Source: Candidatus Stoquefichus massiliensis AP9 (GTDB lineage Bacteria > Bacillota_I > Bacilli_A > Erysipelotrichales > Coprobacillaceae). Taken from it: a stretch of 37,721 nt of DNA. The notes below the pieces were generated by a model, which was not told the DNA's origin, made no database searches, and saw nothing but the letters and a program-made list of their open reading frames with translations. The translations under genes were made by a program, and so were the position numbers. The stretch spans positions 390,853-428,573 of the forward strand of contig NZ_HG005284.1 of assembly GCF_000455285.1 (NCBI RefSeq), written 5' to 3'. Below, piece by piece: positions 5,143 through 23,047 of the stretch (positions within the stretch are counted from its first letter, which is position 1; each line of letters opens with the position of its first letter).

Positions 5143-5352
5143 TCATTCGTGATCTAATTCTGGCAACCCAGCAATACTTGTCAAAAAAGATGTGATTCCT
5201 GCAAGTAATGTTGCAGAAACTAAAATACTCCATGATACATCACTAATGACAACTGAAGTCCCGATCAATCCTACTGCAGTCTGAGCCATTGTCTTCATTG
5301 CTCTTATTCCTGCTGCTTTCATCCATTTCTTAAAATCATATTTTTTAATCAT
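5143..5352 (-). CDS. Phage holin (r1t-like)
   Basis: A small membrane protein of 69 aa that forms the pore through which the endolysin leaves the cell. Two hydrophobic segments (about residues 20-38 and 43-61: TAVGLIGTSVVI, SWSILVSATLLAGITSFLTS) follow a basic N-terminus (MIKKYDFKKWMKAAGIRAMK). The pattern resembles r1t-type holins. AGAGGAGG lies at proper distance from the ATG at 5352; the frame is open to 5379 but without an RBS. First of three lysis genes. Confidence 0.75.
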   Translation of the reverse strand: MIKKYDFKKWMKAAGIRAMKTMAQTAVGLIGTSVVISDVSWSILVSATLLAGITSFLTSIAGLPELDHE

Positions 5353-5390
5353 ATTATTCCTCCTCTTTACAAAAGGCACTCATAGAGTGC

Positions 5391-7945: not shown

Positions 7946-10900
7946 CTATTCTAATGAAAAGCTATCATTAACTTCTTTAATAAACCTAAAATACGCAGTT
8001 GGCGACCCAATTCTTAATGCTTTAACTGTATGAAGTTCCTGATTTGAAAACCATGCAATTTTTGTATTGCTATCATAGAATCCTAATTCGCTTGTTGTTA
8101 AGATAGCCTTAAAGTTTGATTTTGATGCCCCTAATTCAAGTGTTGACCCATTAAATCTAGCCCATTCAAGTAGTTCAATAACATTAACTTTGCCTTGATT
8201 AAGAGTATCAAGTGTTTGTTCAGTTGATTTAATAAATTCTGTATAATCTTTTGTGAGGACCATTTTATTTATAATTTCAGTTATTTTCGTATTGTAATCA
8301 GTTTTCAAGACTGTATTCTCATTCACAAATGCAGTTATACTATTTTGCAATAGTTCTATATCAGTATCATATTGTGTTCTAATTTCAACCTTTGCTCTCG
8401 CAATTAATTCTTCAACATCAACAGGAATATCCGTCATATCAAAGCAAGTTGCATAGGCTATATACCAATAGACAGGTACATCCGTCGTTCCAACTGTACC
8501 ATCAATATAAAAAAATCCAGTGCTTGAAAATGTTCCTGTATTTCCACAAACAAGCTTAAAAATATACTCTTCATATTTCCCAGTTCCTGTATTGCTTGTT
8601 AACCATTTTGTATTACCACCAGTTCCAGTAGCGTTTGTAGCCCACAAAAGTTTTCTTCCTGCAGGTATTTTTGCAATTATACGATAGATAAACACTGCAT
8701 TTGCTCGAGATGCATGTCCCCAATAAAATCCACCACATCCAGGGGATGATGTCCCAATATTTTTGATTCTTATTTGATAATCAGAGGCGCTAGGACAATC
8801 TGTTTCTCTTGCAATACGTTCTAATACCACATTTGAGTTACCACTATTATTGTAAACTTTAATGCTATTTACCTCATCAATAAAGGTTGAATCCTTAAAC
8901 AGTATTTTACCTTGTCCTAATGATTCTCCTATTGCTCCTTGTGGACCAGTTGCACCTGTATTTCCCTTGTTACCATAAACACCAATAACTCTTTTTGCAG
9001 TTTCCTTTGTTGTGTTATTTGTATACTTTATTACTTCATAGTTCCATAGATATTTGTTTGTTTCTGTCAATGTAGGAACGGCTGTTGCCCAGCTTGCTGG
9101 TGCTGCTATATTGCTTGTACTGACCTGATAATATTCTGTAATTGTACTTATTCCTACACCAGTTGCTCCTGGTGCTCCTATTGGACCCGTATCTCCATAG
9201 GCACCAATAATACAAGGGGCACTTGCTGTGGTAGAGTTGTCTGTATAAGTGATCACTTCATAATTCCATAGATATTTCTTGGATGATGAAACAGACTGTA
9301 CAGATGTTGTCCATCCTGATGTACTTGCTGTGATTCCACTACTGCTTGCAGTAGCTAAATAATAATTTGTGATTGACTTAATCCCTTTACCTGCATCTCC
9401 CTTGTCACCTTTAATAAGAGACCAAGTATAATCAGCAGCATTTGTTGATTCAGTTGGTGTTGTCTTATTATAAGCCAAACCAATATAAGTCTTTCCAGTT
9501 GGATCATCACTCATATTTGCTCCTAATGAAGATGTTGCATATTTAATCCATGTATAGAAAGTCTTTCCATCTGCTCCCTTACCACCTGCAACACCTTGAT
9601 CACCTTTTTCACCTTTGATGAGTGACCATGTGTAATCACTGTAGTTATTGCTTTCTGTAGATGTTTCCTTGTTATAGGCTAATCCTATATAGGCTTTACC
9701 AGTAGGATTATCTGACATACCAGTTGTTGGTGTATCAGCATATTTCAGCCATGTATAATACTGTTTACCATCTGTACCCTTTGGACCTTGAACACCTTGA
9801 GGGCCTTCGACCTTAACCCATGTATAATCATTGAATACTGAACTATCAGTCTCTGTAAAATCAACATATGTTCCAATATACTTACCTGGTGTTTCTCCAT
9901 TGTTGGATGTAAATGTTGTCCCATTATCACTATATTTGATATGCAGATATGAAGTCTTTCCATCACTTCCTTTAGGTCCAGCAGTTCCTGTTTCTCCCTT
10001 AGGTCCCACTTCACCTTTCATCTTAGACCAGCTATAAGAAGTGTAATTTGTAGGAGCTGTTGAATTTTCAGTGATTGCAACACCAATATAGATTGCATCA
10101 ACTGCACTATCACTCATTGGATTACCGTTAACATTCTGAGAATACTTCACATGAAAATAAGAGTTTCTTCCATTTTCACCTTTAGGACCTTGAATACCTT
10201 GTTCACCTTTTATTTTAGCCCATCTATATTGAGATGGATCAATTGAGGGTGTTTCCTGTGTTTTATTATAGGCAATTCCAATATAATTTTTATTTGTAGC
10301 TTCATTTGATATCCCAGTCCCATTTTCATTATCAGCATACATAATCCATGTATAATAAGTCGTTCCGGATATACCCTGTTGTCCTTGCTGACCATCTCTT
10401 ACTAAAGAAAATGACAACTGCTGAGAAATTTCATAACCCTTGTATATAACATAACACTTATATATGATATTTCTTGAATCAATGGAAGATAGCACATTTC
10501 CAGATACCTTTAGACAATGATTCTCTACAACTTCATTGTCTAAACACAAATCAGTTTCAATACCATCAACAATTCTTTTATATGTAATATCTAAATTTTT
10601 ATCATTAAGCATTATTTGATTCGCATTATTTCTAATATCTGGAGTAATAATCAACGGATTCCAAATAGGCCATATATTACCATTAGTATCAACTTGTTGT
10701 GTTGGCATATTTGAATCTAGATTCAATGAAAGTTTTGGTATATCAGTCTCATCTATAATTGTCATATAAGTTTCTTTAATAACATCTGTTAATACACAAC
10801 ATTCTAAAGAAAAGACTGCATATTTATCAACATCTTCACATGTAATAACAACATTTTTCATACCTTTATGGGCATTATTCCAAATAGTATCTGATGATTT

Positions 10901-12505
10901 ATTTTCACTTTCCCTTGTCCAATTAAATAACAATTCACTTGATTTTTCAGTAATATCTTCACCCTTATAAAAAAGCTGTGCATTTAATGAGATATTATCA
11001 CTTTCATTTTTTATAACATTTCCATTACCAACAATATTAAGTTTATAAAGTGAATTTGAAATTTGATTCACTTCATTTTCTATATTCTGAACTGCTAAAT
11101 GAATCTCTTTTAATCCATCAATTTTTAATCCTTCTTGATCCATTGATAAAAATGGTTCATTAATATGACCTTCATTATCACGCATTCCAAACTTCACTGT
11201 GCCCTGTTCTAAATCAAGTTCAAACATATCTCCACTTAATTGACCAGTGTTAATAGCATTTGCACTAAAATTCCCCTTTAAATCAAAAGCAAAGTTCCTA
11301 AATGTTTTTCCTCCATCTTCACTATAACCAAAACCACCCATAGACATTCTCCATAAGTGTGTATCATCTCTTAATGTTGGCGTATCCATAATGGTCCATC
11401 CTTTAGGATAACCATTTTCATCCATATCAACAGTATAATATCCACCCTTATGACCTAATATATTTTCAGATATATCTTTATAAGAATTTAAAAGAGTTCG
11501 ATAAAACTTCTTCAATAATATTTCACTAGGACTCTTAGACATCACAACTTCTTTTTCATTTTGTCCTAATGATTCAATAGAACTCTTCATTCCACCATCA
11601 AAACTCATTGTATTATCCATAATCACAATATTGTGATTATCAATACGAATTAAATCACTCACTTCAATAGATGGGTCACCACGCCATGTACAAGTACAAG
11701 GCAAATATGTGAAGCCATTTATTTTTTCAAATATCTTTTCTAGTCTCTCCTGCGTCATATAAGGATTATCAAAAGTGATTCCATAACCACTTCCACAAGT
11801 CAAGACATTCTCTTCATCTCCACTTGTTAATGAAGAAATCATTAATTCAGTATTTGTTTTCTTAAAACCACCCTGATATTGATCTTTCTCCTCAATAACA
11901 TAATCACTTGATTCATACCAAAAAAACTCCAACTGATTATAACGATTCATTCTCACATTCTGACCTAATAAAGAAGCCATATAACTTAACATCTCTTTAC
12001 ATGACACATCTAATGGCTTATCAATCATGATATCTTCAAACTCATCTGATTTTAATGTAATATGACATTGTTGAACAATGTCATGTACAACATCTTTAAG
12101 AGGAGCTGGATATTCGATTTGAGGTTGATAATCAATGTTGAGATTGCTTATGAAATCATAACCTTCCAGTTTCACTTCATATTGATTATCTTGACTGACT
12201 TCACTAACGATATAAGTTCCCATTGGAATCCACTCTATATCATTATCAATCATTAATCCTATAAATACCTCAAGAGAACTATTCATATATTGTATATTAT
12301 CTAAATAAGACATTGTTAATTGAATACTGTTAGAACAAATACTTCCTAAAGTTAATGTATCTTTTCCATTACTCACTTCATGAATTGTAACATTCTTTAA
12401 AGAATGACCGTCAATTTCTTGACGGCCATTAAAAATAATCTTCATTCTTAACTGACGTTCATCACTTAAGATTTGATCTTTATGTGTTTGTGTTGTTGTT
12501 ATCAT
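7946..12505 (-). CDS. Tail hub/fibre protein (Tal-like) with collagen-like modules
   Basis: A 1519-aa tail-tip protein. Residues ~1-330 resemble the baseplate-hub/prophage tail domain of siphophages (IIFNGRQEIDG start, WIPMGTYIVSEV, DLIRIDNHNIVIMDN). A linker (~330-690) contains GGFGYSEDGGKTFRNFAFD and a coiled coil. Residues ~700-1195 are a string of modules separated by short Gly-X-Y collagen-like stretches such as GPKGETGTAGPKG. The C-terminus (~1200-1519) has a jelly-roll-like part and a coiled-coil stalk with no S74 domain. It starts just after the Dit-position gene; GTAGGTGATGAT precedes the ATG, overlapping that gene's stop region. The order TMP, small protein, hub, fibre is the usual siphophage tail-tip order. 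Confidence 0.85.
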   Translation of the reverse strand: MITTTQTHKDQILSDERQLRMKIIFNGRQEIDGHSLKNVTIHEVSNGKDTLTLGSICSNSIQLTMSYLDNIQYMNSSLEVFIGLMIDNDIEWIPMGTYIVSEVSQDNQYEVKLEGYDFISNLNIDYQPQIEYPAPLKDVVHDIVQQCHITLKSDEFEDIMIDKPLDVSCKEMLSYMASLLGQNVRMNRYNQLEFFWYESSDYVIEEKDQYQGGFKKTNTELMISSLTSGDEENVLTCGSGYGITFDNPYMTQERLEKIFEKINGFTYLPCTCTWRGDPSIEVSDLIRIDNHNIVIMDNTMSFDGGMKSSIESLGQNEKEVVMSKSPSEILLKKFYRTLLNSYKDISENILGHKGGYYTVDMDENGYPKGWTIMDTPTLRDDTHLWRMSMGGFGYSEDGGKTFRNFAFDLKGNFSANAINTGQLSGDMFELDLEQGTVKFGMRDNEGHINEPFLSMDQEGLKIDGLKEIHLAVQNIENEVNQISNSLYKLNIVGNGNVIKNESDNISLNAQLFYKGEDITEKSSELLFNWTRESENKSSDTIWNNAHKGMKNVVITCEDVDKYAVFSLECCVLTDVIKETYMTIIDETDIPKLSLNLDSNMPTQQVDTNGNIWPIWNPLIITPDIRNNANQIMLNDKNLDITYKRIVDGIETDLCLDNEVVENHCLKVSGNVLSSIDSRNIIYKCYVIYKGYEISQQLSFSLVRDGQQGQQGISGTTYYTWIMYADNENGTGISNEATNKNYIGIAYNKTQETPSIDPSQYRWAKIKGEQGIQGPKGENGRNSYFHVKYSQNVNGNPMSDSAVDAIYIGVAITENSTAPTNYTSYSWSKMKGEVGPKGETGTAGPKGSDGKTSYLHIKYSDNGTTFTSNNGETPGKYIGTYVDFTETDSSVFNDYTWVKVEGPQGVQGPKGTDGKQYYTWLKYADTPTTGMSDNPTGKAYIGLAYNKETSTESNNYSDYTWSLIKGEKGDQGVAGGKGADGKTFYTWIKYATSSLGANMSDDPTGKTYIGLAYNKTTPTESTNAADYTWSLIKGDKGDAGKGIKSITNYYLATASSSGITASTSGWTTSVQSVSSSKKYLWNYEVITYTDNSTTASAPCIIGAYGDTGPIGAPGATGVGISTITEYYQVSTSNIAAPASWATAVPTLTETNKYLWNYEVIKYTNNTTKETAKRVIGVYGNKGNTGATGPQGAIGESLGQGKILFKDSTFIDEVNSIKVYNNSGNSNVVLERIARETDCPSASDYQIRIKNIGTSSPGCGGFYWGHASRANAVFIYRIIAKIPAGRKLLWATNATGTGGNTKWLTSNTGTGKYEEYIFKLVCGNTGTFSSTGFFYIDGTVGTTDVPVYWYIAYATCFDMTDIPVDVEELIARAKVEIRTQYDTDIELLQNSITAFVNENTVLKTDYNTKITEIINKMVLTKDYTEFIKSTEQTLDTLNQGKVNVIELLEWARFNGSTLELGASKSNFKAILTTSELGFYDSNTKIAWFSNQELHTVKALRIGSPTAYFRFIKEVNDSFSLE
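8925..10398 (-). repeat. In-gene array of fibre modules split by collagen-like linkers
   Basis: Five type-A modules of about 60-70 residues each share YxxWxKYA...YIGxAYNK...YxWSxIKG. They are followed by two type-B modules (KYLWNYEVI...Y at the end, with IGVYG/IGAYG). Each module ends in a short Gly-X-Y run. Two adjacent A modules (about 9420-9780) are close enough at DNA level to be a recent duplication. Such arrays change fibre length and exposure by recombination. Confidence 0.8.
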
Positions 12506-12513
12506 ATCATCAC

Positions 12514-12879
12514 CTACTTCTCAATAAAATCAATAGACATGCCTTGCCATATCCATTGTTTCAATGTTTTATCATACATATAAACAGGAACACTTCTATC
12601 ACTTACATAAACATTCATTGTGTTGCGTTTCCCCATTCTTGGATCAGGATATTCCAAATCAAAGAATAAAGGGCTAATGGCTTCTAATAAAGAAGCCATT
12701 TGTCCATCATTCATAGGTGGAAATGTGACAGATATTTTTCTCTTTGTTGTAATACGATCTCTAAACATATCTCCCAACTGATTTCTACCTGTACCCTCAC
12801 TTGAATCTAAATCTGATTCCTCCCATTGCAAAGCAACAGGATTTATAATTGCTTGACCATTAATTTTTAATACGTCCAT
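12514..12879 (-). CDS. Small tail protein in the distal-tail (Dit) position
   Basis: A 121-aa protein starting MDVLKINGQAIINPVALQWE, all-beta in look, with no membrane segment. It resembles the short uncharacterised phage proteins (DUF6711-like) found between tape-measure and tail-hub genes of Firmicute siphophages. Position makes a tail-tip adaptor role likely, although a classical Dit is about twice this length. GAGGCAAAT precedes the ATG; the stop codon lies 9 bp before the hub start. Confidence 0.65.
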   Translation of the reverse strand: MDVLKINGQAIINPVALQWEESDLDSSEGTGRNQLGDMFRDRITTKRKISVTFPPMNDGQMASLLEAISPLFFDLEYPDPRMGKRNTMNVYVSDRSVPVYMYDKTLKQWIWQGMSIDFIEK

Positions 12880-12888
12880 ATTTGCCTC

Positions 12889-15012
12889 CTAAATCATTAA
12901 TGGTGTTGTCCCAGTACGTTTAACAACACCATTATGATATTTAATCACTTGTTTTCCGACAACTTCACCATCCATAACAAACGTTGCATGAATGTTCATA
13001 TTACCATTACCACCTTTACCTTGCATTGCACTTCGCACTGCATTATAAACACCACTACTAATACCACTCACAATCTGATCATTATTAGCAACTGCAGTCT
13101 TTCCATTAATTCGACCAACTAACTCTGGTCCTGCTTCTCTTGCCACAAAAAGTTCTCCTGTTTCTGGGAAACCACCACATGCACGATATTTTGGATTAAA
13201 TTTATATGTAATTTCTCCTTCGCCACCTCTAATTTGCCAAGTTGTATATACATTTTTAGGAACTCTATCAAATTTATTCGTAGCATTTGTTATCTCACTT
13301 TCACTAGGTCCAATTAATTTAGCTATAACTTTAGGATCAACACTATCTAGTCCATTCGTAATAATATCAATGATTTGTTGCGTATCCTTATCTATTTTAC
13401 CGTTATTTTGTTGTAAAGACTCAGAAAGCTTTTCACATAATTGTAATCCCTCTTGACTTCCTGAATTTGCAAAATCAATAACACTTTGTGACAACATTTT
13501 TTGATCAGATAAACTCATTTCAGATAAAGCAGTTACTTTCATTAATTTCAATGCATCTAAACCTGTACTTTGAACTTTTTGTATTTCATCAGAAGACATT
13601 TTCCATGCATTATAACTATTTTGTAAACGCTTTTCCTCTTCTTCGCTCATTTGCAACCCTGAGTCCTTCAATTTTTGTATCATTTGATCATAACTCATTC
13701 CATAAACAAGTGCTTTATGAACCATTGAAGCTTCCAAAGCACCAGAAGTAAGTTGTATTGTTTGTAACTCTTCTTCATTAGCAGTTGTCATTCTATTTTT
13801 ACAATCTTCTGCTGCACCTGCTAAATTTCCCCAGGAACTTGTTCCTTTTTCTTCAATGTTTGTATATTCGTCTGACATTAAAATAGCCGAAGCAATAATT
13901 TTTTCATCAGATGCTGTTAATGCTTCTCTCCAAAGTTGTTGTCCCTTTCTATTGTTTTCATATGAGTTAGTTGCTGACTCAAGGATTTCGGCATATTCAC
14001 TTAAATGAACTTTTGAATACTCAAACTCTTCGTAATATTTATTTAATGATTCACGATCGGCACCAATTAAATCAGCATCTTTACGCCATTTGCTTTCTAA
14101 CTCATCAATTTTTTCTTTACATATTCTTTGTTTTTCTAATTCAGCATTATAATTAGCTTGAGCAGTTACTAAATCTGCTCTTAATTTTGCTTCATTTTTC
14201 AAACTTTCAACAAATCCATCATAATAAGCTTCTGTTTTAGCTTTTTGTTCTAATTTCTTTATATTATCCTCTATAGCCTGAGAATTTTTTATCCATTCTA
14301 ATCTACCACTTTCAGTCAATTTAACTGTATTTGGCATAGCACTATTAATTTTATCAACATAGTATTGAGCTTCTTCAAAGTTTTTAATATATCCATTTTC
14401 ATCTGCTAATCCACGTAAATTATCAACAAACACTCTCAAAGCTGCTGATTGTGTTTCTGCACTCTTAGCATTTTCTATTGAAGATTGAATATTTTTCTTA
14501 ATAGTTTCTTCAGTTTCTTCTAAAGATTTTCTTTTTTCATGTAAAGCTTCTGAAAACTCTCTTGATTGTTTAATTGAATCAGATTCTTCATAATTAAAAG
14601 CAATCAATGCAGTACTTAAGGTTAATAAGCCACCTACTACCATAAGAATTGGAGTAGAGGATAGAAAACTCAACGCTGCTGAGAATCCACCTGTTGCAAC
14701 TGATGCGGACGTGGCAGTTGTTGTTAATGTAGAAAACACATTTTCCAACATCCCTCCAGTATCTTTAAACTTAAATACTGTTTCATTTAAATATGCCAAA
14801 TTGTTTACTACAGACATAATAGTGTTAAATGAGTTTAAAAACTCTAATATGCTAGCTGAATCAAGCTCTGATGTTGTTTTTGATAATGCTAGACATGTTT
14901 CATTTAATTTGAGAATTTGATTAGTAAAATCACTAATATTTTTTGTATATATTTCAAGTTTCTTTAATGATTCAGATATTTTATCTAAACTTAATATTAA
15001 ATCATTTTCCAT
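12889..15012 (-). CDS. Tail tape measure protein
   Basis: A 707-aa protein that sets tail length. It begins MENDLILSLDKISESLKKLE and is mostly helical and coiled coil. It has a hydrophobic stretch (about residues 105-140, PILMVVGGLLTLSTALIAF) and a charged coiled-coil region from ~145 to 360. The C-terminal glycine-rich segment is typical for tape measures (GGFPETGELFVAREAGPE...GRINGKTAVANNDQIV). It is on the short side for the family, which predicts a short tail (roughly 100 nm by the usual ~0.15 nm per residue rule). CTAAGGAGGTG sits seven bases before the ATG. Upstream, where the GT gene should be adjacent, lies a 4.7-kb block on the opposite strand. Confidence 0.9.
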   Translation of the reverse strand: MENDLILSLDKISESLKKLEIYTKNISDFTNQILKLNETCLALSKTTSELDSASILEFLNSFNTIMSVVNNLAYLNETVFKFKDTGGMLENVFSTLTTTATSASVATGGFSAALSFLSSTPILMVVGGLLTLSTALIAFNYEESDSIKQSREFSEALHEKRKSLEETEETIKKNIQSSIENAKSAETQSAALRVFVDNLRGLADENGYIKNFEEAQYYVDKINSAMPNTVKLTESGRLEWIKNSQAIEDNIKKLEQKAKTEAYYDGFVESLKNEAKLRADLVTAQANYNAELEKQRICKEKIDELESKWRKDADLIGADRESLNKYYEEFEYSKVHLSEYAEILESATNSYENNRKGQQLWREALTASDEKIIASAILMSDEYTNIEEKGTSSWGNLAGAAEDCKNRMTTANEEELQTIQLTSGALEASMVHKALVYGMSYDQMIQKLKDSGLQMSEEEEKRLQNSYNAWKMSSDEIQKVQSTGLDALKLMKVTALSEMSLSDQKMLSQSVIDFANSGSQEGLQLCEKLSESLQQNNGKIDKDTQQIIDIITNGLDSVDPKVIAKLIGPSESEITNATNKFDRVPKNVYTTWQIRGGEGEITYKFNPKYRACGGFPETGELFVAREAGPELVGRINGKTAVANNDQIVSGISSGVYNAVRSAMQGKGGNGNMNIHATFVMDGEVVGKQVIKYHNGVVKRTGTTPLMI

Positions 15013-15067: not shown

Positions 15068-15095
15068 TATCTTATAAAGAAAGCGAGTGAAAAAT

Positions 15096-15401
15096 ATGTT
15101 TGAAAAAAAAGATAATGAAACCATAGATCCTATTTTAGATCTTGGATTGGAAAAATTAGACAAATGCAGTTTAGATATTATCAGTAAAATGTTAAATCAA
15201 AGATTTTTAGAGTGTTGGAGATTTACGAAACATGCCAATAGTTGTAGTAGTAGTGTTATGGGTGTAACAACAACAACTGCCATTTATAATCAAAATTATA
15301 TTATTTTAAAACAACTTCTTAATCTTCAAGAACAAAACCAACAAATTATAGAACAGAATAGTAAAGTTATTGAGTTACTTACAACTCTTGTTGATAAATA
15401 A
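15096..15401 (+). CDS. Small cargo protein A1, function unknown
   Basis: A 101-aa soluble protein beginning MFEKKDNETIDPILDLGLEK. Its central segment is Ser/Thr/Cys-rich and its C-terminal amphipathic helix reads QNYIILKQLLNLQEQNQQII and on to LLTTLVDK. It is a paralogue of the next gene: both start MF.K, have a Leu-Asp-Asp/Lys N-terminal half and end in the same ILKQxLxLxE...II.LL..LV helix. The GTG at 15087 is in frame, but matching the leader to the next gene's (AAGAAAGYGAG then ATG) points to 15096. It lacks the SHOCT tail. Function not recognised. Plus-strand cargo inside the tail operon. Confidence 0.65.
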   Translation: MFEKKDNETIDPILDLGLEKLDKCSLDIISKMLNQRFLECWRFTKHANSCSSSVMGVTTTTAIYNQNYIILKQLLNLQEQNQQIIEQNSKVIELLTTLVDK

Positions 15402-15496: not shown

Positions 15497-15805
15497 ATGT
15501 TTAATAAAAATTTAAGTCCAGAAGACAAAATAAATTTAATAGGTCTTGATAGCCTAGATGATATTGATAAAGATGCAATTATTGATATGTTTGAAAATTC
15601 CTGGAGTGGTAAAACCTTATATGGTAAGCCCTCTACTAATACTCTATCTTCATCTGCTGCAATAATATATTCATCTGCCTCAACTGCAGCTATCTTTACA
15701 CAAAATTTAATGATTTTAAAACAAATACTTCAATTGAAAGAAAATCAATACAAACAAAATCAGGAAATCATTGATTTACTTAAGCAATTAGTTATGCAAA
15801 ATTAG
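15497..15805 (+). CDS. Small cargo protein A2, cut off from its SHOCT tail by an amber codon
   Basis: A 102-aa protein beginning MFNKNLSPEDKINLIGLDSL, with a Ser/Ala-rich middle and a C-terminal helix (QNLMILKQILQLKENQ...IIDLLKQLV) paralogous to protein A1. RBS GTGAGGATATC precedes the ATG. It stops at TAG (15803-15805), but the same frame continues for 49 sense codons to TAG at 15953-15955. That extension encodes a SHOCT domain like those of the three larger cargo proteins. Either the gene is a recent nonsense allele of a ~152-aa protein, or the amber codon is read through at low level (its 3' context is CAA). Function unknown. Confidence 0.65.
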   Translation: MFNKNLSPEDKINLIGLDSLDDIDKDAIIDMFENSWSGKTLYGKPSTNTLSSSAAIIYSSASTAAIFTQNLMILKQILQLKENQYKQNQEIIDLLKQLVMQN

Positions 15806-15955
15806 CAACCTATACAAACAAGCAATACAGAACAATATAAAAACGTTAGTCAGTCCACTTTGGAGGAACTACAAAAGTTAGAAGAACTTGTCAGTTTAAA
15901 TATCTTAACTCAAGAAGAATTTGACAAAAAAAAGAAAGAATTATTTAATCAATAG
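15806..15955 (+). pseudogene. In-frame SHOCT-domain tail after the amber stop
   Basis: 49 codons in the frame of the preceding gene end with LVSLNILTQEEFDKKKKELF plus two residues. This matches the C-terminus LLDMGILSQEEFDKKKKELL of the downstream cargo proteins. There is no start codon or RBS of its own. It is therefore the severed 3' end of the 15497 gene. Confidence 0.75.
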
Positions 15956-15957
15956 TC

Positions 15958-15987
15958 AAAACACCACAGACTGTGGTGTTTTATTTT
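15958..15987 (+). terminator. Cassette A terminator
   Basis: AAAACACCACA-GAC-TGTGGTGTTTT (15958-15982) is a perfect 11-bp stem with T-rich flanks on both sides. It can therefore act in both directions. Three bases after its right arm comes the stop codon of a decayed GT gene end. Confidence 0.85.
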
Positions 15988-16021
15988 ATTGGTAACTATT
16001 TATAAGCAAACTAACCTAAAC
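15986..16021 (-). pseudogene. Scar 1: decayed 3' end of the GT tail-chaperone gene
   Basis: On the minus strand the last twelve codons align without gaps to the end of the intact gene at 19785-19820, 26 of 36 bases by hand count. They translate V*VSLLINSYQ* against VWMNSLVNSYQ*. The distance from the TGTGGTGTTTT terminator arm to the stop codon is the same as at the intact gene (three bases). An in-frame TAG shows it is dead. Confidence 0.6.
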
Positions 16022-16116
16022 ACTTATTTCATATTCTTTATCTTCCCATATCTATTAAATACATACTAATATACAAATATGCCTACATTGAAAAATATAT
16101 TATTCTTACAATCTTA

Positions 16117-16144
16117 TTGTTATTTTATCTCAATTCGTTATAAT
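16117..16144 (+). promoter_or_regulatory. Promoter of broken cassette B
   Basis: TTGTTA (16117-16122), a 16-bp spacer and TATAAT (16139-16144), followed by AGAAAGGATTGG as RBS. It is clearly homologous to the promoters at 17875 and 18883, but more diverged. Confidence 0.7.
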
Positions 16145-16170
16145 TTATATATACAGAAAGGATTGGTTTT

Positions 16171-16630
16171 ATGAGGAAAGAATATAATGGAGTTATAGGC
16201 TACAAAGTACAATTAAAGGATAATGAAAAAATATTCATAAAATCTAAACATTAGATATAAAACTTTAGATTTGGCACTTCTTGAATGGATTGAACTTGGT
16301 AGTGTTAATTTACAAGATCGTGGTATATTAACAATTCAAACATATGAAAAATCTCCTTTTCAAATCGTTTTTAAAAGGAACCAATACAATGAAATAAAAG
16401 AACTATATGATATTCTACTCCCTTACACAAAACGAATAAAAATTAATGATGACGAGAGTAAAATGACTATTTTCAACAAAGGTAATCCATATCAAATCGT
16501 CAATAATAAAAGAACACTCAGGCATTTTCAACCACATACCTATTTATCTTTGTATGATATCAATAGTTATGAAATTATTATTGATAATCAAATTCATAAT
16601 AAGGATACACTCACAAATATTTTAAAGTAT
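16171..16630 (+). pseudogene. Frameshifted, truncated copy of the SHOCT cargo family (copy B)
   Basis: The ATG at 16171 opens a frame reading MRKEYNGVIGYKVQLKDNEK, matching the start of the intact copy at 18936. It hits TAG after 27 codons. A single extra base near 16249 explains this: the next frame resumes with IRYKTLDLALLEWIELG against ITKENLHLAHLEWLDLG and runs on collinearly through FKRNQYNEIKELY and YLSLYDINSYEI. Similarity ends after about NKDTLTNI (near 16625), where the sequence switches to a remnant of a tape-measure start on the other strand. The frame itself stays open to 16690. It has both a frameshift and a lost 3' half, so it is a pseudogene. Confidence 0.8.
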
Positions 16631-16702
16631 TATTTATTTCTTCCAAAGATTGTGATAACTTTTCAAGATTACTTATATTTATATCCATAAAACCGCCTCC
16701 TT
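16611..16702 (-). pseudogene. Orphan tape-measure gene start with its RBS
   Basis: On the minus strand CTAAGGAGGCGGTTTT precedes an ATG at 16688. A 25-codon frame follows (MDINISNLEKLSQSLEEINN, then TLKYL and TGA at 16613-16611). The real tape measure starts with the same CTAAGGAGG leader and a similar peptide (LDKISESLKKLE against LEKLSQSLEEIN). No tape-measure body follows. It looks like the fragment left when a cassette taken from the same locus of another phage was joined in. Confidence 0.65.
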
Positions 16703-16798: not shown

Positions 16799-17521
16799 AT
16801 GCAAACATTTGAACCAATGAGAAAAACAAAAATTACAATTGATATGGAAAATAAAGAAATTTATATTAAACAAAAATCCAAAGAATTGAAAACAAGTTTG
16901 TTAAATTTAGATTATATAGAAGCCGATTTTAGTGAGGCTGGAAGTAAATTATTTATAGATATCTTATCAAATGTTTTTAAAATTTATAGTGGTAATTGGA
17001 ACGATAAACAAATTACTGAATTATTTAACATCATCTCTCCTTTTGTAAACCGTATTGAAATAGATGAAAAAAGAGAGATTTTAACAATCATTAATAAATT
17101 TCCTAACAAGACTAAACTCTTAATTCAAGAAATCAATTTTAATGAAATTGTTGACTGCTCTTTAATAGAAAACAAACAGATGTTACATTCAAGTGTAAAT
17201 AAGGAATTTATTACCAGATTACAACTTCATATTAATCTAAAATCAAATATTCAACCTATTATTATTGACTACATCGTTACTAATGCATCTCTAATTACAA
17301 AAAAAATCTATACAACAAGTAAAAAATATTTATTTCTTTATGATATGTGTCAAAGAGATTTAGCATTAATTAAAAATATTTATAACAAAGTAAACTTACC
17401 CCACACTAATCAATTAACCGATCCCTTCTCCGAATTAAAAAAATATAAAGAACTGTTAAATATGGGAATCTTATCTCAGGAAGAATTTGATAAGAAAAAG
17501 AAAGAATTGTTAAATTTATAA
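16799..17521 (+). CDS. SHOCT-domain cargo protein C (divergent family member)
   Basis: A 240-aa protein. The N-terminal ~195 residues are mixed beta/helix and resemble, more distantly, the PH-like body of the two larger family members (for example NEIVDCSLIENKQML at the place of INSYEVICDKQVI, and YDMCQRDLALIKNIYNK for IKMCDEDLAKLEIILKK). The last ~35 residues are a SHOCT domain (LKKYKELLNMGILSQEEFDK and on to the end). No signal peptide or clear membrane segment. RBS AGAGAGGAGC. SHOCT is a short oligomerisation-type tail common in membrane-associated and mobile-element proteins. Function unknown. Confidence 0.7.
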   Translation: MQTFEPMRKTKITIDMENKEIYIKQKSKELKTSLLNLDYIEADFSEAGSKLFIDILSNVFKIYSGNWNDKQITELFNIISPFVNRIEIDEKREILTIINKFPNKTKLLIQEINFNEIVDCSLIENKQMLHSSVNKEFITRLQLHINLKSNIQPIIIDYIVTNASLITKKIYTTSKKYLFLYDMCQRDLALIKNIYNKVNLPHTNQLTDPFSELKKYKELLNMGILSQEEFDKKKKELLNL

Positions 17522-17533
17522 TGAAAATACCAC

Positions 17534-17747
17534 TTTTTAAACTGGTTCAAAAGTCAAGGACAATTTATTAACAGTTTAACCATAATTAAACGAAGGTAAT
17601 AAATCATATCATTTAGTGTGATTTATTCCTTCTTTTTTAGCGTTATTGATTATATTTTAGTAGCACTAAAAGAAGTGCAAGCACTTCAAAAAAATTTATG
17701 ATGTAATTATAAATTAGTAGATGGCAGGTATGTCAAAAACATAATGG
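17534..17747. mobile_element. 214-bp insertion that splits a cassette terminator
   Basis: Elsewhere in the block the cassette terminator reads ACCAC-AGATAGTGGTG. Here ACCAC (17529-17533) and AGATAGTGGTG (17748 on) are separated by 214 bp without coding potential. The insert contains a long hairpin and a perfect GAAGTGC-AA-GCACTTC palindrome. No clear terminal inverted repeats or target duplication could be read, so it is an unclassified insertion (IS remnant or MITE-like). Together with the flanks it accounts for the 406-bp gap 17522-17927. Confidence 0.45.
17592..17638 (+). terminator. Strong hairpin with T run inside the insertion
   Basis: A 14-15-bp stem (GAAGGTAATAAATCA paired with TGATTTATTCCTTC, one bulge), a 12-base loop and TTTTTT. 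It can replace the terminator that the insertion broke. Confidence 0.65.
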
Positions 17748-17927: not shown

Positions 17928-18743
17928 ATGGAAAAAGAATTTATTGGTGTTGGCGATAAAGTTATAGTTGATGGAGACAACTTATTCATCAAGTCTAATA
18001 TTCTTAAAGAAAAATGTTATTTACCTCATATTGAATGGTTAAAATTGGATGAAGTCAATTTTCAAGGGCGTGGCATGCTACACATCTATACTGATGTTAA
18101 AAGTAAAGGTATGAATGTTGTCTTTAAGCGTAATCAATATGAAGATGCTAAAAATATGTATTTGTTTTTGCTCCCTTACATGTCTAGAATCATATTCAAT
18201 CATGAAGAAAATAAAATAACAATTTATAATAAGGGTAATGATGATCCTTTAGAAAAACCAATTAATAAAGTCAATGTTTCAAATCCATATACCTATTTAT
18301 CATTTGATGACATTAACAGTTATGAAGTTATCTGTGATAAGCAAGTCATTAACAATGATATGCTTAAGAATACTGCCTCTGGCAAGTATGTAGCTGATGG
18401 TGTTGGTGCTTTAGTTGGTGCATTATCCTCTTTAAACTCTGGTGAATATATTACTAATCTACAGATTAAGCTAAATGTGAATAATTTTGATAATCCTTGT
18501 GTCTATGTTAATTATATTACTCGTAAAATCAAGTCTGATAGTCAGATGGCTAAAGACTTAATTAAGATGTGTGATGAAGATTTAGCAAAGCTTGAAATCA
18601 TTCTCAAAAAAGATGAACCTGTAGAAAAGAAAGTCACAAATGACCCAATAGAAGAAGTCAAGAAATTAAAAGAACTTCTAGATATGGGAATCTTGTCACA
18701 GGAAGAATTTGATAAAAAAAAGAAAGAATTATTAAATCTATAA
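17928..18743 (+). CDS. PH-like/SHOCT cargo protein D
   Basis: A 271-aa protein. Residues ~1-125 are beta-rich (IEWLKLDEVNFQGRGMLHIY, FKRNQYEDAKNMY, NKITIYNKGN) and look like a bacterial PH-type domain. A second beta-rich part follows (~126-215) with YTYLSFDDINSYEVICDKQV and a Gly/Ala-rich segment GVGALVGALSSLNSGEY. The SHOCT tail (~237-271) is NDPIEEVKKLKELLDMGILS and onward. From about PYTYLSFDD to the end it is almost identical to protein E, while the first ~110 residues are only moderately similar. Own promoter and terminator. Encoded against the tail operon, so it is probably made in the uninduced cell. Function unknown; superinfection exclusion or host-envelope modification are possible for such cargo. 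Confidence 0.75.
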   Translation: MEKEFIGVGDKVIVDGDNLFIKSNILKEKCYLPHIEWLKLDEVNFQGRGMLHIYTDVKSKGMNVVFKRNQYEDAKNMYLFLLPYMSRIIFNHEENKITIYNKGNDDPLEKPINKVNVSNPYTYLSFDDINSYEVICDKQVINNDMLKNTASGKYVADGVGALVGALSSLNSGEYITNLQIKLNVNNFDNPCVYVNYITRKIKSDSQMAKDLIKMCDEDLAKLEIILKKDEPVEKKVTNDPIEEVKKLKELLDMGILSQEEFDKKKKELLNL

Positions 18744-18744
18744 T

Positions 18745-18770
18745 GAAAGCACCACAGATAGTGGTGTTTT
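18745..18770 (+). terminator. Cassette D terminator
   Basis: AAAGCACCAC-AGATA-GTGGTGTTTT, a 10-bp stem including one G-U pair followed by a T-rich tract, begins 3 bp after the stop codon of protein D. Confidence 0.8.
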
Positions 18771-18771
18771 A

Positions 18772-18811
18772 TATTGGTAATGACTATTCATAAAATAAAT
18801 TCATCTAAACC
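18772..18811 (-). pseudogene. Scar 3: decayed GT gene 3' end
   Basis: Near-identical to scar 2 because it was duplicated with the cassette leader. On the minus strand it retains the GTTTAGATGAA motif of the GT terminal codons. Confidence 0.45.
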
Positions 18812-18882
18812 TTTTTATTTTTTACCCTACAATTCTAACTTATCCAACTCACGATAGCCTATATATAAAAATATCAATCTTA

Positions 18883-18911
18883 TTGTTATTTTCATTTTAA
18901 TTCGCTATAAT
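18883..18911 (+). promoter_or_regulatory. Promoter of cassette E
   Basis: TTGTTA (18883-18888), a 17-bp spacer and TATAAT (18906-18911), identical to the cassette D promoter. Confidence 0.8.
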
Positions 18912-18935
18912 TTATATATAGAAAGGACTGATTTT

Positions 18936-19754
18936 ATGGAAAAAGAATTTATTGGTGTAAGTGGATTCAAGGCCCAACTAAAAGATAATGAGGAATTATT
19001 TGTAAAATCAAGTATTACAAAAGAAAATTTACATTTAGCACATCTCGAATGGCTTGACCTTGGAAATATAAATTTTCAAGGACGTGGTATATTTAGAATT
19101 GTCACTGATGAAGAAGTACCTTTTCAAATCATTTTCAAAAGAAATCAATATGATTCAATGAAAGAATTATATAGCATTTTACTACCTTACACTAAAAGAA
19201 TAAGTATTGATAAAGATACTAAAAAGATAACTATTTTTAACAAAGGCAATTTAGATAAAACTGTGAGACCTATGAATAAAATTAATGTTTCTCCACCATA
19301 TACTTATCTATCATTTGATGACATTAACAGTTATGAAGTTATCTGTGATAAACAAGTCATTAACAATGATATGCTTAAGAATACTGCTTCTGGTAAGTAT
19401 GTAGCTGATGGTGTTGGTGCTTTAGTTGGTGCATTATCTTCTTTAAACTCTGGTGAATATATTACTAATCTACAGATTAAGTTAAATGTGAATAATTTTG
19501 ATAATCCTTGTGTCTATGTTAATTACATTACTCGTAAAATTAAGTCTGATAGTCAGATGGCTAAGGATTTAATTAAGATGTGTGATGAAGATTTAGCAAA
19601 GCTTGAAATCATACTCAAAAAAGATGAACCTGTAGAAAGTAAAGTCTCTAATGATCCAATAGAAGAAGTCAAGAAATTAAAAGAACTTCTAGATATGGGA
19701 ATCTTGTCACAGGAAGAATTTGATAAGAAAAAGAAAGAATTATTAAACCTATAA
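18936..19754 (+). CDS. PH-like/SHOCT cargo protein E
   Basis: A 272-aa protein, tandem paralogue of protein D. It shares MEKEFIGV with it, then diverges over about 110 residues (GFKAQLKDNEELFVKSSITK, IFRIVTDEEVPFQIIFKRNQ). From PYTYLSFDDINSYEV to the end it is virtually identical, including the SHOCT tail. Its N-terminal third is closer to the broken copy B (KVQLKDNEKIFIKS, FQIVFKRNQY) than to protein D. This means the N-terminal and C-terminal parts have different histories. Own promoter and bidirectional terminator. Function unknown. Confidence 0.75.
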   Translation: MEKEFIGVSGFKAQLKDNEELFVKSSITKENLHLAHLEWLDLGNINFQGRGIFRIVTDEEVPFQIIFKRNQYDSMKELYSILLPYTKRISIDKDTKKITIFNKGNLDKTVRPMNKINVSPPYTYLSFDDINSYEVICDKQVINNDMLKNTASGKYVADGVGALVGALSSLNSGEYITNLQIKLNVNNFDNPCVYVNYITRKIKSDSQMAKDLIKMCDEDLAKLEIILKKDEPVESKVSNDPIEEVKKLKELLDMGILSQEEFDKKKKELLNL

Positions 19755-19784: not shown

Positions 19785-20186
19785 TTATTGATAACTATTG
19801 ACAAGAGAGTTCATCCAAACCTTTGCTTTGGCTTGTTCTTCTTGCATTGTTAATTTTTGTTCTTGCTCCTTTTGCTTGCTAGTCATAGGATATGGCTTTG
19901 ATGGATATGACGATGCCCGTTGCCCAGATTTACGACAAAATACATTATACAATGATGTAGAAATAGCATCATAAATATATAATCCTTGTAACCACATATG
20001 ATTATTATGTCGATCTTCTTTAATTTCATAGGATTGTCTGTAGAACTTTGCCAGTTCTACATCTTGGAGATAGAACTCATCATAAGTCATTCCTATGGAT
20101 AAATAAAAGGGAAGAACTTCTTTAAATATTTCTGTATATGTTTTGTTGGAAAGAGAATCCTCAGTGTCTAAAAACTCGCCTTCCAA
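19785..20186 (-). CDS. Tail assembly chaperone, frameshift-encoded T part of GT
   Basis: An open frame of 133 codons (EGEFLDTEDSLSNKTYTEIF..., ending VNSYQ) lies in the -1 frame relative to the upstream G gene. Its first possible codon is a TTG without a convincing RBS. Translation most likely enters by a -1 shift on A AAA AAC at 20201-20195. That gives a 236-aa fusion: 100 residues from the G frame, then RNKLEGEFLD and the rest of this frame. GT chaperones coat the tape measure during tail assembly. The frame is helical and polar, with a Gln/Lys-rich C-terminus. Its 3' end is the sequence found decayed three times inside the cargo block. Confidence 0.8.
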   Translation of the reverse strand: MEGEFLDTEDSLSNKTYTEIFKEVLPFYLSIGMTYDEFYLQDVELAKFYRQSYEIKEDRHNNHMWLQGLYIYDAISTSLYNVFCRKSGQRASSYPSKPYPMTSKQKEQEQKLTMQEEQAKAKVWMNSLVNSYQ

Positions 20187-20494
20187 CTTATTGCGTTTTT
20201 TGAGGTGTCCTCTTCAAATAATGTATTTAATGTATCTGTTGCCATTTCTGATAACTTGTTATACATATCATTCTTATTTGTAAATAAATGGAAGATTTCT
20301 TCAACTTCCGCTTTTTTAATGCGTTTATGATGTGCATAGAATGCATATTCGAAAAGTTTTGGTAAGATTGTTACAGGTTTTTTATTCATATCTGCTAAGA
20401 CAATACCATCTGCTTCCATCTTTTCTAATGTTTTTCTTGTATACTCTAATGTATAGTTAACATCATTGTATGTAAATTGAATTGTTTTAGACAT
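20168..20494 (-). CDS. Tail assembly chaperone, G product
   Basis: A 108-aa protein (MSKTIQFTYNDVNYTLEYTR...) that resembles the small G-type tail-assembly chaperones of Firmicute siphophages. It sits between the tail tube and tape measure genes, where G/GT genes always lie. AGGAGGATGAATCA precedes the ATG. Its last ~8 codons follow a slippery heptamer, so a minor fraction of ribosomes should produce the longer GT fusion. Confidence 0.8.
   Translation of the reverse strand: MSKTIQFTYNDVNYTLEYTRKTLEKMEADGIVLADMNKKPVTILPKLFEYAFYAHHKRIKKAEVEEIFHLFTNKNDMYNKLSEMATDTLNTLFEEDTSKNAISWKASF
20195..20201 (-). promoter_or_regulatory. Slippery heptamer for -1 ribosomal frameshifting
   Basis: On the minus strand the codons TCA AAA AAC contain A AAA AAC in the correct phase. 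A slip by one base lets the ribosome continue with CGC AAT AAG TTG GAA, directly in the GT frame. The G frame ends 27 bases later. This is the classical slippery sequence at the classical position between two overlapping tail-chaperone frames. Confidence 0.85.
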
Positions 20495-20513: not shown

Positions 20514-20993
20514 TTATTCAGCTGCCGCTGTAGATTTTGCTTCCCATGCTGGAGCATTTGTTGGTGTAATATATAAGTTTGTTTCAAGAACAGCATTCAC
20601 TGCCATAGCAGGTAATCCCATTGCACTTGGTTGTCCTGTAAAATAAACTGATTTATCTAAACCAGGATGTTTGATTTCAAACCATACATCTTTACCAGCT
20701 TCTTTAGCTGCTTTATAAGCTTCTACTAATGTGTTCCAAGCTGCTTCTAAATCAGTTGTAAAGTTAGCTAAGAAAGCTAATGCTCCACCTAAATCTTTTA
20801 ATCCTTCTACATAAGTCTTAAATTCTGTTTGACTTAAATCAGTTGTTTCTAATGTTTCTGGAGATGGATTCATCTCTGGAACACTTTTGATATTAGGGAT
20901 TTGAATATACCCTGCTGTTGGTCTTACTCCGGCAGTTGCTTCCACTGCATAATTCACTGTTACTCCTGCTGTACTCATAGCAATATTTGACAT
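20514..20993 (-). CDS. Major tail (tube) protein
   Basis: A 159-aa Ala/Thr-rich protein starting MSNIAMSTAGVTVNYAVEAT, with ETTDLSQTEFKTYVEGLKDL, which is the tail-tube pattern of siphophage/Firmicute major tail proteins. Location immediately before the G/GT chaperones and strong RBS (AAGGAGGAAAAG) fit a highly expressed structural protein. No capsid proteins accompany it. Confidence 0.85.
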   Translation of the reverse strand: MSNIAMSTAGVTVNYAVEATAGVRPTAGYIQIPNIKSVPEMNPSPETLETTDLSQTEFKTYVEGLKDLGGALAFLANFTTDLEAAWNTLVEAYKAAKEAGKDVWFEIKHPGLDKSVYFTGQPSAMGLPAMAVNAVLETNLYITPTNAPAWEAKSTAAAE

Positions 20994-21006: not shown

Positions 21007-21375
21007 TTATAGTGCAGTTTGATACTGCATCAATCTTTTTAATTCTGTTTCTTTGTCTTGTGTATCTAATCCACAATATGTTCTGATATATCCTAACTGT
21101 CTCATAGCATGATCAATATCAATCATAATCGATTTGATTTCATCCATTCCTGTTTGTGATTGAATTTCAATTTCGTATTCTTCTACATCAACTGTTCCTA
21201 AATCATTCAATGTCCGACTATCTTTGAGGACATAATTATTTGTTTGAACAAGTGATATAACAGGATAACTTGAATGATAGAATCTTAACTTTTGATTTGT
21301 TGTTTGAATTGTTTCATGCTTTTGTTTTAATACATCACCTACAAGTGTATAAACCTGTTGTTCATGATCTGTCAT
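21007..21375 (-). CDS. Tail completion/terminator-like protein
   Basis: A 122-aa protein starting MTDHEQQVYTLVGDVLKQKH, with the mixed alpha/beta pattern of tail-terminator (neck-side) proteins (LRFYHSSYPVISLVQ, DVEEYEIEIQSQTGMDEIKS, MIDIDHAMRQLGYIRTY). It directly precedes the tail tube gene, the standard place for the protein that caps the tail. AAAGGAGGTG precedes the ATG. Such a cap would be needed for a headless tail as well as for a virion. Confidence 0.65.
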   Translation of the reverse strand: MTDHEQQVYTLVGDVLKQKHETIQTTNQKLRFYHSSYPVISLVQTNNYVLKDSRTLNDLGTVDVEEYEIEIQSQTGMDEIKSIMIDIDHAMRQLGYIRTYCGLDTQDKETELKRLMQYQTAL

Positions 21376-22227: not shown

Positions 22228-22596
22228 ATGTCAACACTAAGTTTAAACATTAAAAAATATCGAGAAATGAAACATTTGACACAAGATGAATTGGGTGACT
22301 TATTAGAGGTTAGCGGAAAAACAATCTCTTCATGGGAAAAAGCGAGAAGTGAACCAAAAATGGATATGATTGAAAAAATGTCAAAGATATTGAATTGTAC
22401 ACAATCACAACTTATTGGTGAAAAAGAAACTGATTTCTTTACTTCTCCTGAAGAAGCATTACAGTTTATATTAAAACAAGAAATGTTTGCTAAATTTGGT
22501 GGTTATGATTTAGAAATCATGAGTGATGAAGAAATTATTGATATGGCAAATGATATTGCTCAATTTATTAAAATGATTGCAAAGAGGCGTAAATAA
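22228..22596 (+). CDS. CI-like repressor (HTH_3/XRE)
   Basis: A 122-aa protein. An N-terminal XRE helix-turn-helix (about residues 7-60: IKKYREMKHLTQDELGDLLE and VSGKTISSWEKARSEPKMDM) is followed by a short helical domain (~70-122) with no autocleavage domain. Repressors of this size paired with an ImmA-type protease are inactivated by that protease rather than by self-cleavage, as in ICEBs1 ImmR/ImmA. It is divergent from the activator gene, with palindromes between. Confidence 0.85.
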   Translation: MSTLSLNIKKYREMKHLTQDELGDLLEVSGKTISSWEKARSEPKMDMIEKMSKILNCTQSQLIGEKETDFFTSPEEALQFILKQEMFAKFGGYDLEIMSDEEIIDMANDIAQFIKMIAKRRK

Positions 22597-22597
22597 A

Positions 22598-23047
22598 ATG
22601 AATGCAGCCTATTATGTTAATTGGGTTACAAATCAGTATCATACAAATAATGTAAGAGAACTTATTGACTATTGTAATATTTCTATTCAATACTGTGATA
22701 CACTTAATAAAGAATGTGATTCTAGCTTATTTGTTTTAAATAAACAGGCTTATATTACTTTAAAAACTGATTTGAATCCTTTATATGAAAATTTCTTACT
22801 TGCTCATGAGTTAGGACACTATATCATTCATTATGATGATCATATGTCATTTTCGTTTCTTATGAAAACCCGTAAGAATGCACTAGAAAGAGAAGCCAAT
22901 GAGTTTGCCTGTCGTCTTTTACTTAAAGATATTAATATAAAAGAAGTTGAAAATATTGAATTTATTGTACAAGAAAAAGGTATACCACTTCAAATATGGT
23001 ATACTGTTCATGAATTTATTTTTCCTTTACAAAATAACTCCTATTGA
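22598..23047 (+). CDS. ImmA/IrrE-type metallopeptidase
   Basis: A 149-aa protein with the zinc motif HELGH in LLAHELGHYIIHYDDH and a downstream Glu in REANEFACRLLL, the third zinc ligand of this family. ImmA-type enzymes cleave the partner repressor after DNA damage or another cue and so induce the element. The frame is open upstream, but the ATG at 22598, one base after the repressor stop and preceded by AGAGGCG, is the likely start. The two genes are translationally coupled. Confidence 0.88.
   Translation: MNAAYYVNWVTNQYHTNNVRELIDYCNISIQYCDTLNKECDSSLFVLNKQAYITLKTDLNPLYENFLLAHELGHYIIHYDDHMSFSFLMKTRKNALEREANEFACRLLLKDINIKEVENIEFIVQEKGIPLQIWYTVHEFIFPLQNNSY

Follow-up and report, generated by a model that had tools for sequence, protein, structure and literature searches.

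Relic start of a displaced tape-measure gene in the cargo block of a candidate headless-tail locus

A short frame within a block of accessory genes of the gut bacterium Candidatus Stoquefichus massiliensis AP9 is almost certainly the relic start of a displaced tape measure protein (TMP) gene with its ribosome site undamaged. The window (the whole stretch of DNA that was analysed, 37,721 nucleotides) contains a set of tail and lysis genes in which the resident TMP gene is separated from the tail chaperone genes by genes on the opposite strand, referred to here as cargo, and the relic lies among these. We lean slightly towards an overall explanation in which the relic is what remains of a TMP that was exchanged, and in which the cargo genes would be TMP-matched protection genes of a headless tail.

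The relic start and the junction that cuts it

The relic is located on the minus strand from 16690 to 16620 and consists of ~23 codons (MDINISNLEKLSQSLEEINNTLK). It reads ...tttatgCTAAGGAGGcggttttATGGATATAAATATAAGTAATCTTGAAAAGTTATCACAATCTTTGGAAGAAATAAATAATACTTTAAAATATTTGTGA, which is translated as MDINISNLEKLSQSLEEINNTLKYL followed by a stop, with the ATG at 16690 and the stop ending at 16613. Starting from 16702, its leader is CTAAGGAGG-cggtttt-ATG, after which come 25 codons and the stop. The ribosome site (16694 to 16702, minus strand) has the same nine bases as the one preceding the resident TMP gene, whose leader is aacaCTAAGGAGGtgttattta with its ATG at 15012, and the leaders of other TMPs in the group are AAGGAGGTGTT or near variants.

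The encoded peptide also falls among TMP starts. When its first 23 residues were compared with 12 related TMP starts the mean score was 34.8, a mean that was reached by none of 1000 shuffles. Among 82 ATG-plus-strong-Shine-Dalgarno peptides from seven loci, scores of at least 31 were restricted to real TMP starts, the next best being 22.9, and a wider scan of 855 starts again placed the relic within the TMP group. Its best partners are the TMP of the sister species G001 (score of 49; LEKLSQSLEEINNTLK against IDKLTSSVNELNNALSK) and the first of two TMPs on contig V2734 (TMP1; 48), with the resident TMP scoring lower (34). The first-pass annotation was thus right that the relic resembles the resident start in both leader and peptide, and related TMPs do begin with sequences of this kind. 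That the frame is open by chance behind a Shine-Dalgarno site is extremely improbable; the region is A+T-rich and coiled-coil-like peptides do look alike, but the shuffles did not attain the score, no non-TMP start of the loci comes near it, and the position of the relic relative to cargo C fits the spacing of TMP and cargo genes. Start codons of cargo C and the relic are 111 bases apart as compared to 75-96 bases in seven intact cargo/TMP pairs, and divergent cargo and TMP genes are the normal unit in relatives. As judged from the sequence, the relic and cargo C form a back-to-back unit (cargo <- promoter -> TMP start), as do the resident TMP and cargo A, in agreement with how the two adjacencies had been described at first pass.

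The junction lies immediately beyond the relic. Cargo B (16163 to 16619, plus strand) is a PH-type pseudogene whose frame is broken near 16250. At the DNA level it resembles cargos D and E as far as 16619, where its last ~120 codons are lost, in line with the first-pass description of B as truncated. Because the similarity ends there, ~23 codons of the short frame are TMP-derived, while its last codons and stop, reached as the open frame continues to 16613, are the antisense of B. The relic is therefore cut after ~23 codons by the junction into cargo B, and the earlier count of 25 codons holds for a TMP-like start after which nothing follows but not for the origin of its final codons. It is also highly improbable that the 25-codon frame is itself functional, for example as a small peptide or as a translated leader in the late transcript: its ribosome site and frame are intact, but a free-standing peptide of this kind occurs in no relative, and its end is borrowed from the B antisense strand.

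The SHOCT tail of cargo A2 through B is collinear with the tail of D through E (15902-16607 versus 18690-19371; 72% over 715 bases). From these collinear stretches it follows that E-D-C-TMP(old) and B-A2-A-TMP(resident), arrays whose beginnings are similar, were joined, with the segment B-A2-A-TMP placed after E-D-C-TMP(old). Such a junction could result from a single crossover that joined separate elements as well as from a deletion within a tandem, and either side could be the older. Consequently, the description of the relic as a junction fossil giving the direction and order of the insertions is supported as regards the junction, with direction and order readable only in part.

A donor with cargo C upstream of a relic-type TMP start, as envisaged at first pass, was found in none of the viral contigs, phage records and 309 genomes of the order. 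In the viral contigs and the 309 genomes the relic start pattern occurred in the window's own locus and in unrelated genes only, and phage records contained nothing that matched the 25-residue peptide. The DNA of the relic matched three short stretches of other genomes, each lying inside another gene and similar by chance. The N-terminal half of cargo C has no close relative outside the window.

The tail locus and its cargo genes

On the minus strand the locus encodes an endolysin (NlpC/P60; 3967 to 4848), a holin (r1t type; 5143 to 5379), a tail fibre (5391 to 7934), a Tal-like tail-associated protein (7946 to 12505), a Dit-like tail protein (DUF6711; 12514 to 12879, the Dit role being assigned by position), the resident TMP (12889 to 15012), a pair of overlapping genes for tail assembly chaperones (20168-20494 and 19785-20186, with their role assigned by position and overlap), the major tail protein (20514 to 20993) and a tail terminator (21007 to 21375). 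An HTH repressor (22228-22596) and an ImmA/IrrE-type protease (22577-23047) are located on the plus strand. From repressor and protease to holin and endolysin, this gene set is that of a complete, non-contractile siphovirus-type tail with its own lysis genes. The resident TMP has 707 residues and one strong membrane segment at 121-139, after its variable N-terminus. Its identity follows from the long TMP of cargo-free relatives, which is homologous to it, lies between the same flanks and matches a PHROG of tail length tape measure proteins (5e-78).

No terminase, portal, capsid, replication or integrase genes were found between the host flanks in the window or in G001, and no head, packaging, replication or integration genes were found in the other cargo-bearing loci as far as their contigs reach. 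The sister species G001 carries this gene set at the corresponding chromosomal position, flanked by host genes that match those of the window: DegV/YigZ/MntP at one end and, at the other, a WYL regulator with an adjacent gene (79% identity). The loci of Thomasclavelia genomes have another site in common, and those of V10280/V10261 and V6213 run directly into host-type genes. Tail and lysis genes that lack head genes, at a shared site between host genes, led us to drop the reading of an ordinary prophage, and the locus is probably a headless-tail bacteriocin locus and a candidate F-type tailocin. Cargo adjoins the TMP in all ten headless loci (window, G001, V2734, V6213, V10163, V10280, G021, G027, G042 and the partly deleted G040) and in neither of two related true phages (L128 and L140, which have a long TMP together with terminase, portal and major head genes); as the loci are related, with four coming from one genus, these counts are not independent, and the head-bearing relatives compared number two. 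Speaking against a tailocin with protective genes is the damage seen in some loci, for example the loss of the major tail gene in G040 and a TAA at codon 30 of the V10280 TMP.

The cargo genes all lie on the plus strand. Cargo A (15087 to 15401; 104 aa, helical) is back-to-back with the resident TMP gene and is followed by A2 (15497 to 15805; 102 aa), in which a SHOCT tail continues in frame past a TAG stop to 15955. Beyond pseudogene B are cargo C (16799 to 17521; 240 aa), a divergent PH/SHOCT protein back-to-back with the relic start, and the PH-SHOCT cargos D (17928 to 18743) and E (18936 to 19754). SHOCT (Pfam PF09851) is above cut-off in C, D and E. In the model of E (mean pLDDT of 73.9), an N-terminal PH domain (1-87) is followed by what is probably another PH-like domain, carrying a helical insert, and by the SHOCT; residues 3-89 match a PH-containing structure (Z of 10.6, rmsd of 2.2 over 83 residues) as well as numerous other PH domains. 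Cargo A gave a poor model, with a mean pLDDT of 65.6. No membrane segment was found in A, A2, C, D or E, where no 19-residue segment scored above 1.6. For the cargo, no convincing defence match came from PADLOC, and a PDB sequence search yielded only weak hits to human CD58.

Cargos D and E are 53% identical in their N-terminal halves and the two copies of G001 are 59% identical, with C-terminal halves that are 99% identical in both pairs. In both pairs dN is well below dS, and D, E and their relatives are by this measure under purifying selection. These paralogous pairs of two species (window 17928-19754; L037:8948-10757) look as if their C-terminal halves had been homogenised by gene conversion. 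Promoter-like sites precede B, C, D and E, although the site total hardly differs from that in shuffles (43 versus 41); terminators number 5 versus 1.1 in shuffles.

Several features of individual cargo genes are recorded here in their own right. The A2 gene looks cut short by a nonsense change (15803-15955), and a related cargo of V2734 has a coiled coil and SHOCT in one frame. Behind cargo C, ~205 bases (~17534-17745), single copy in the genome, split a terminator hairpin that can be recognised by comparison with the terminator of D. A nearly full-length PH-SHOCT homologue is present in another genus (G006, L200:6200-6931) with no match to tail genes nearby. Additionally, a "partial tail tape measure protein" of Clostridioides phage CD1801 (MW512570.1, L195:4001-4753) encodes a SHOCT protein and not a TMP, and is probably misannotated.

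Pairing and exchange of cargo and tape-measure starts

The first ~110 residues of the TMPs fall into groups, each of which has its own kind of adjacent cargo. PH-SHOCT cargo adjoins the TMPs of G001, V10280 and G027 (N-termini 40-55% identical), MKLFRSE-type coiled-coil cargo adjoins those of G021, G040 and G042 (43-78%), and A-type cargo adjoins two smaller TMP pairs, one made up of the window and V2734 TMP2 and the other of V2734 TMP1 and V6213. The class of the TMP N-terminus equals that of the adjacent cargo in 10 of 10 TMPs, which by counting happens in 2 of 4200 label arrangements of loci that are not independent; among interior cargo the classes are mixed. Parts of the central region of the resident TMP are 50-70% like TMPs that are paired with PH-SHOCT, but the start of the protein is unlike theirs, which indicates that the N-terminal region carries the pairing. 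Since the relic adjoins the PH/SHOCT cargo C, this rule predicts the G001 type for it, and its highest score is in fact with G001, by a narrow margin.

The major tail and chaperone genes of the window are highly similar in DNA to those of relatives, and this similarity is back toward the TMP end and Dit. It is absent over the first ~450 TMP bases in all relatives but V2734 (67% over 215 bases). Flanking chaperone genes and the TMP C-terminus are conserved, while the cargo and the first ~110-150 TMP residues vary. The V2734 locus contains a chaperone, A-type cargo and a TMP1 that breaks off around residue 583 in window numbering, where it is joined in frame to chaperone residues 15-93; more cargo and TMP2 come after it. 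The G040 locus, at a site shared with relatives, is a chimera of two sister arrays: its left part (relic cargo and PH-SHOCT cargo, ending at the start codon of the latter) shares 84% identity with G027, and its right part (cargo plus TMP start) 83% with G042. This has left the PH-SHOCT cargo, which is TMP-adjacent in G027, as an orphan in G040. With the V2734 fusion and the G040 chimera alongside it, the relic of the window is one case of an exchange of cargo plus TMP start that recurs among these loci, and exchange in the form of such cassettes is very probable. Cargo gaps of ten relatives held no other TMP relic except V2734 TMP1, and none was present in the chimera G040.

Some of these loci show further change. 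In V2734 (L144:4057-9836) codon 48 of TMP1 is a TAG, a relative encoding Q at this point, and the TMP2 frame is lost after residue 411. The G040 locus (L039:8311-9196) is decaying, with the tail terminator and first chaperone also missing while TMP and cargo remain. A lipoprotein gene is found on the late strand in three loci (L127:10847-11659, L144:6177-7037 and L146:1522-2268), two of them in the cargo slot, and these genes are possibly another accessory type comparable to Ltp.

Orphan cargo copies are present in the window, in G040 and in G019. In the latter (L158:11405-13435), three A-type cargo genes lie next to the remains of two chaperone genes, TMP and Dit gave no match, and such retention of cargo where there is no tail is as expected if cargo is useful alone. 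This bears on the reading that the cargo genes are unrelated selfish or regulatory passengers that hitch-hike with the TMP start between conserved recombination flanks, so that pairing would reflect linkage only. The distance between cargo and TMP starts is indeed ~100 bases, and recombination could use the flanking chaperone and the TMP C-terminus, which are sufficiently conserved for it. We nevertheless regard passengers as unlikely given the strong purifying selection on D, E and relatives, the survival of cargo in G019 and its absence from head-bearing relatives.

A proposed protective role and known systems

The headless nature of the locus, which the first-pass annotation had not recognised, changes what the cargo is likely to do. 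Whether the cargo genes are matched protection genes, with orphan copies kept after swaps, we consider evenly balanced. The fuller version, in which the block would be the immunity-gene array of a headless-tail bacteriocin, each gene matched to one type of TMP N-terminus, with orphans kept after a weapon swap and the relic as the remains of the former weapon, is held more tentatively. The element would be an F-type tailocin, namely a siphovirus tail without a head that leaves the cell by means of the holin and endolysin of its own locus, and such tails would kill by opening the target membrane, aided by the TMP. With no predicted membrane segment, the cargo would act inside the cell, where it may recognise the N-terminal part of the matching TMP next to its membrane helix and by binding stop the matching tail from opening a channel. 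An incoming cargo plus TMP start would then change weapon and shield together. The old TMP would be cut away as only one can serve, and the old cargo would be kept since it still protects against rival tails of its type. The array of E, D and C (once also B and A2) would thus be a record of earlier TMP types, with the relic as the remnant of one.

The TMP N-terminus is usually seen as a ruler. If the protective role is correct, tailocins would have their first known immunity genes in the cargo, a killing determinant would lie in the TMP N-terminus, and one tailocin could be exchanged for another and defended against in the manner of colicins or CDI toxins. Cargo that is tied to the TMP start and retained as orphans after exchange provides concrete candidates for such genes. 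Against this role, physical linkage alone could give the pairing, the producers of studied tailocins are spared as the particle does not bind them, and a Pseudomonas screen found no co-located immunity. In published work no immunity genes are known for tailocins, and producer survival is ascribed to receptor mismatch.

An alternative that draws on phage biology is that the cargo encodes superinfection-exclusion proteins of the HK97 gp15 kind, which would keep phages with related TMPs from injecting; the genes would then be anti-phage morons for which the headless tail locus is no more than a parking place, and the relic would still mark a TMP exchange. The gp15 gene occupies exactly the slot that separates tail chaperones from the TMP gene, as a moron with its own putative terminator, and HK97 hybrids with the tail tube and TMP genes of another phage escape its exclusion. 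Related PH/SHOCT genes are furthermore located near integrase or repressor genes in Enterococcus and Staphylococcus phages. We consider this alternative improbable, as the two true phages checked, which would gain from exclusion, are without cargo while the ten headless loci have it, and as the cargo proteins have no membrane segment, unlike gp15, a predicted membrane protein. Additionally, gp15 is encoded on the same strand as the late genes of a true phage, whereas cargo is on the opposite strand of a headless locus.

The slot of gp15 and its dependence on tail tube and TMP, together with the TMP-targeting prophage defence proteins TP-J34 Ltp and JBD26 Tab, can also be adduced for cargo acting on a TMP under the protective role that we favour. 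Both Ltp and Tab are accessory proteins that act on the TMP of another element, but they are linked to the TMP C-terminus while the variable, cargo-linked part here is the N-terminus, which counts against that role. In CDI, Rhs and T6SS systems, orphan immunity genes are retained after module exchange. Their orphan toxin/immunity modules include displaced effector fragments, to which the relic is comparable, although there it is the toxin end of the protein that is exchanged and here the TMP start. The SNIPE defence (PMC13190303) also recognises the TMP during injection, and TMP clade correlates with sensitivity to it, but SNIPE is a membrane-bound nuclease acting on injected DNA and a headless tail brings no DNA. 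A further comparison is with the Listeria monocin, an F-type tailocin, whose account (PMC6872733) in the portions consulted describes no accessory array between chaperone and TMP, where the present loci have one to several cargo genes; the present locus is known from its genes, with particle and killing as predictions from these. The same portions describe in the monocin, as is found here, stand-alone regulatory, tail and holin-endolysin modules with no capsid genes, and a CI-like repressor accompanied by a DUF955 metalloprotease.
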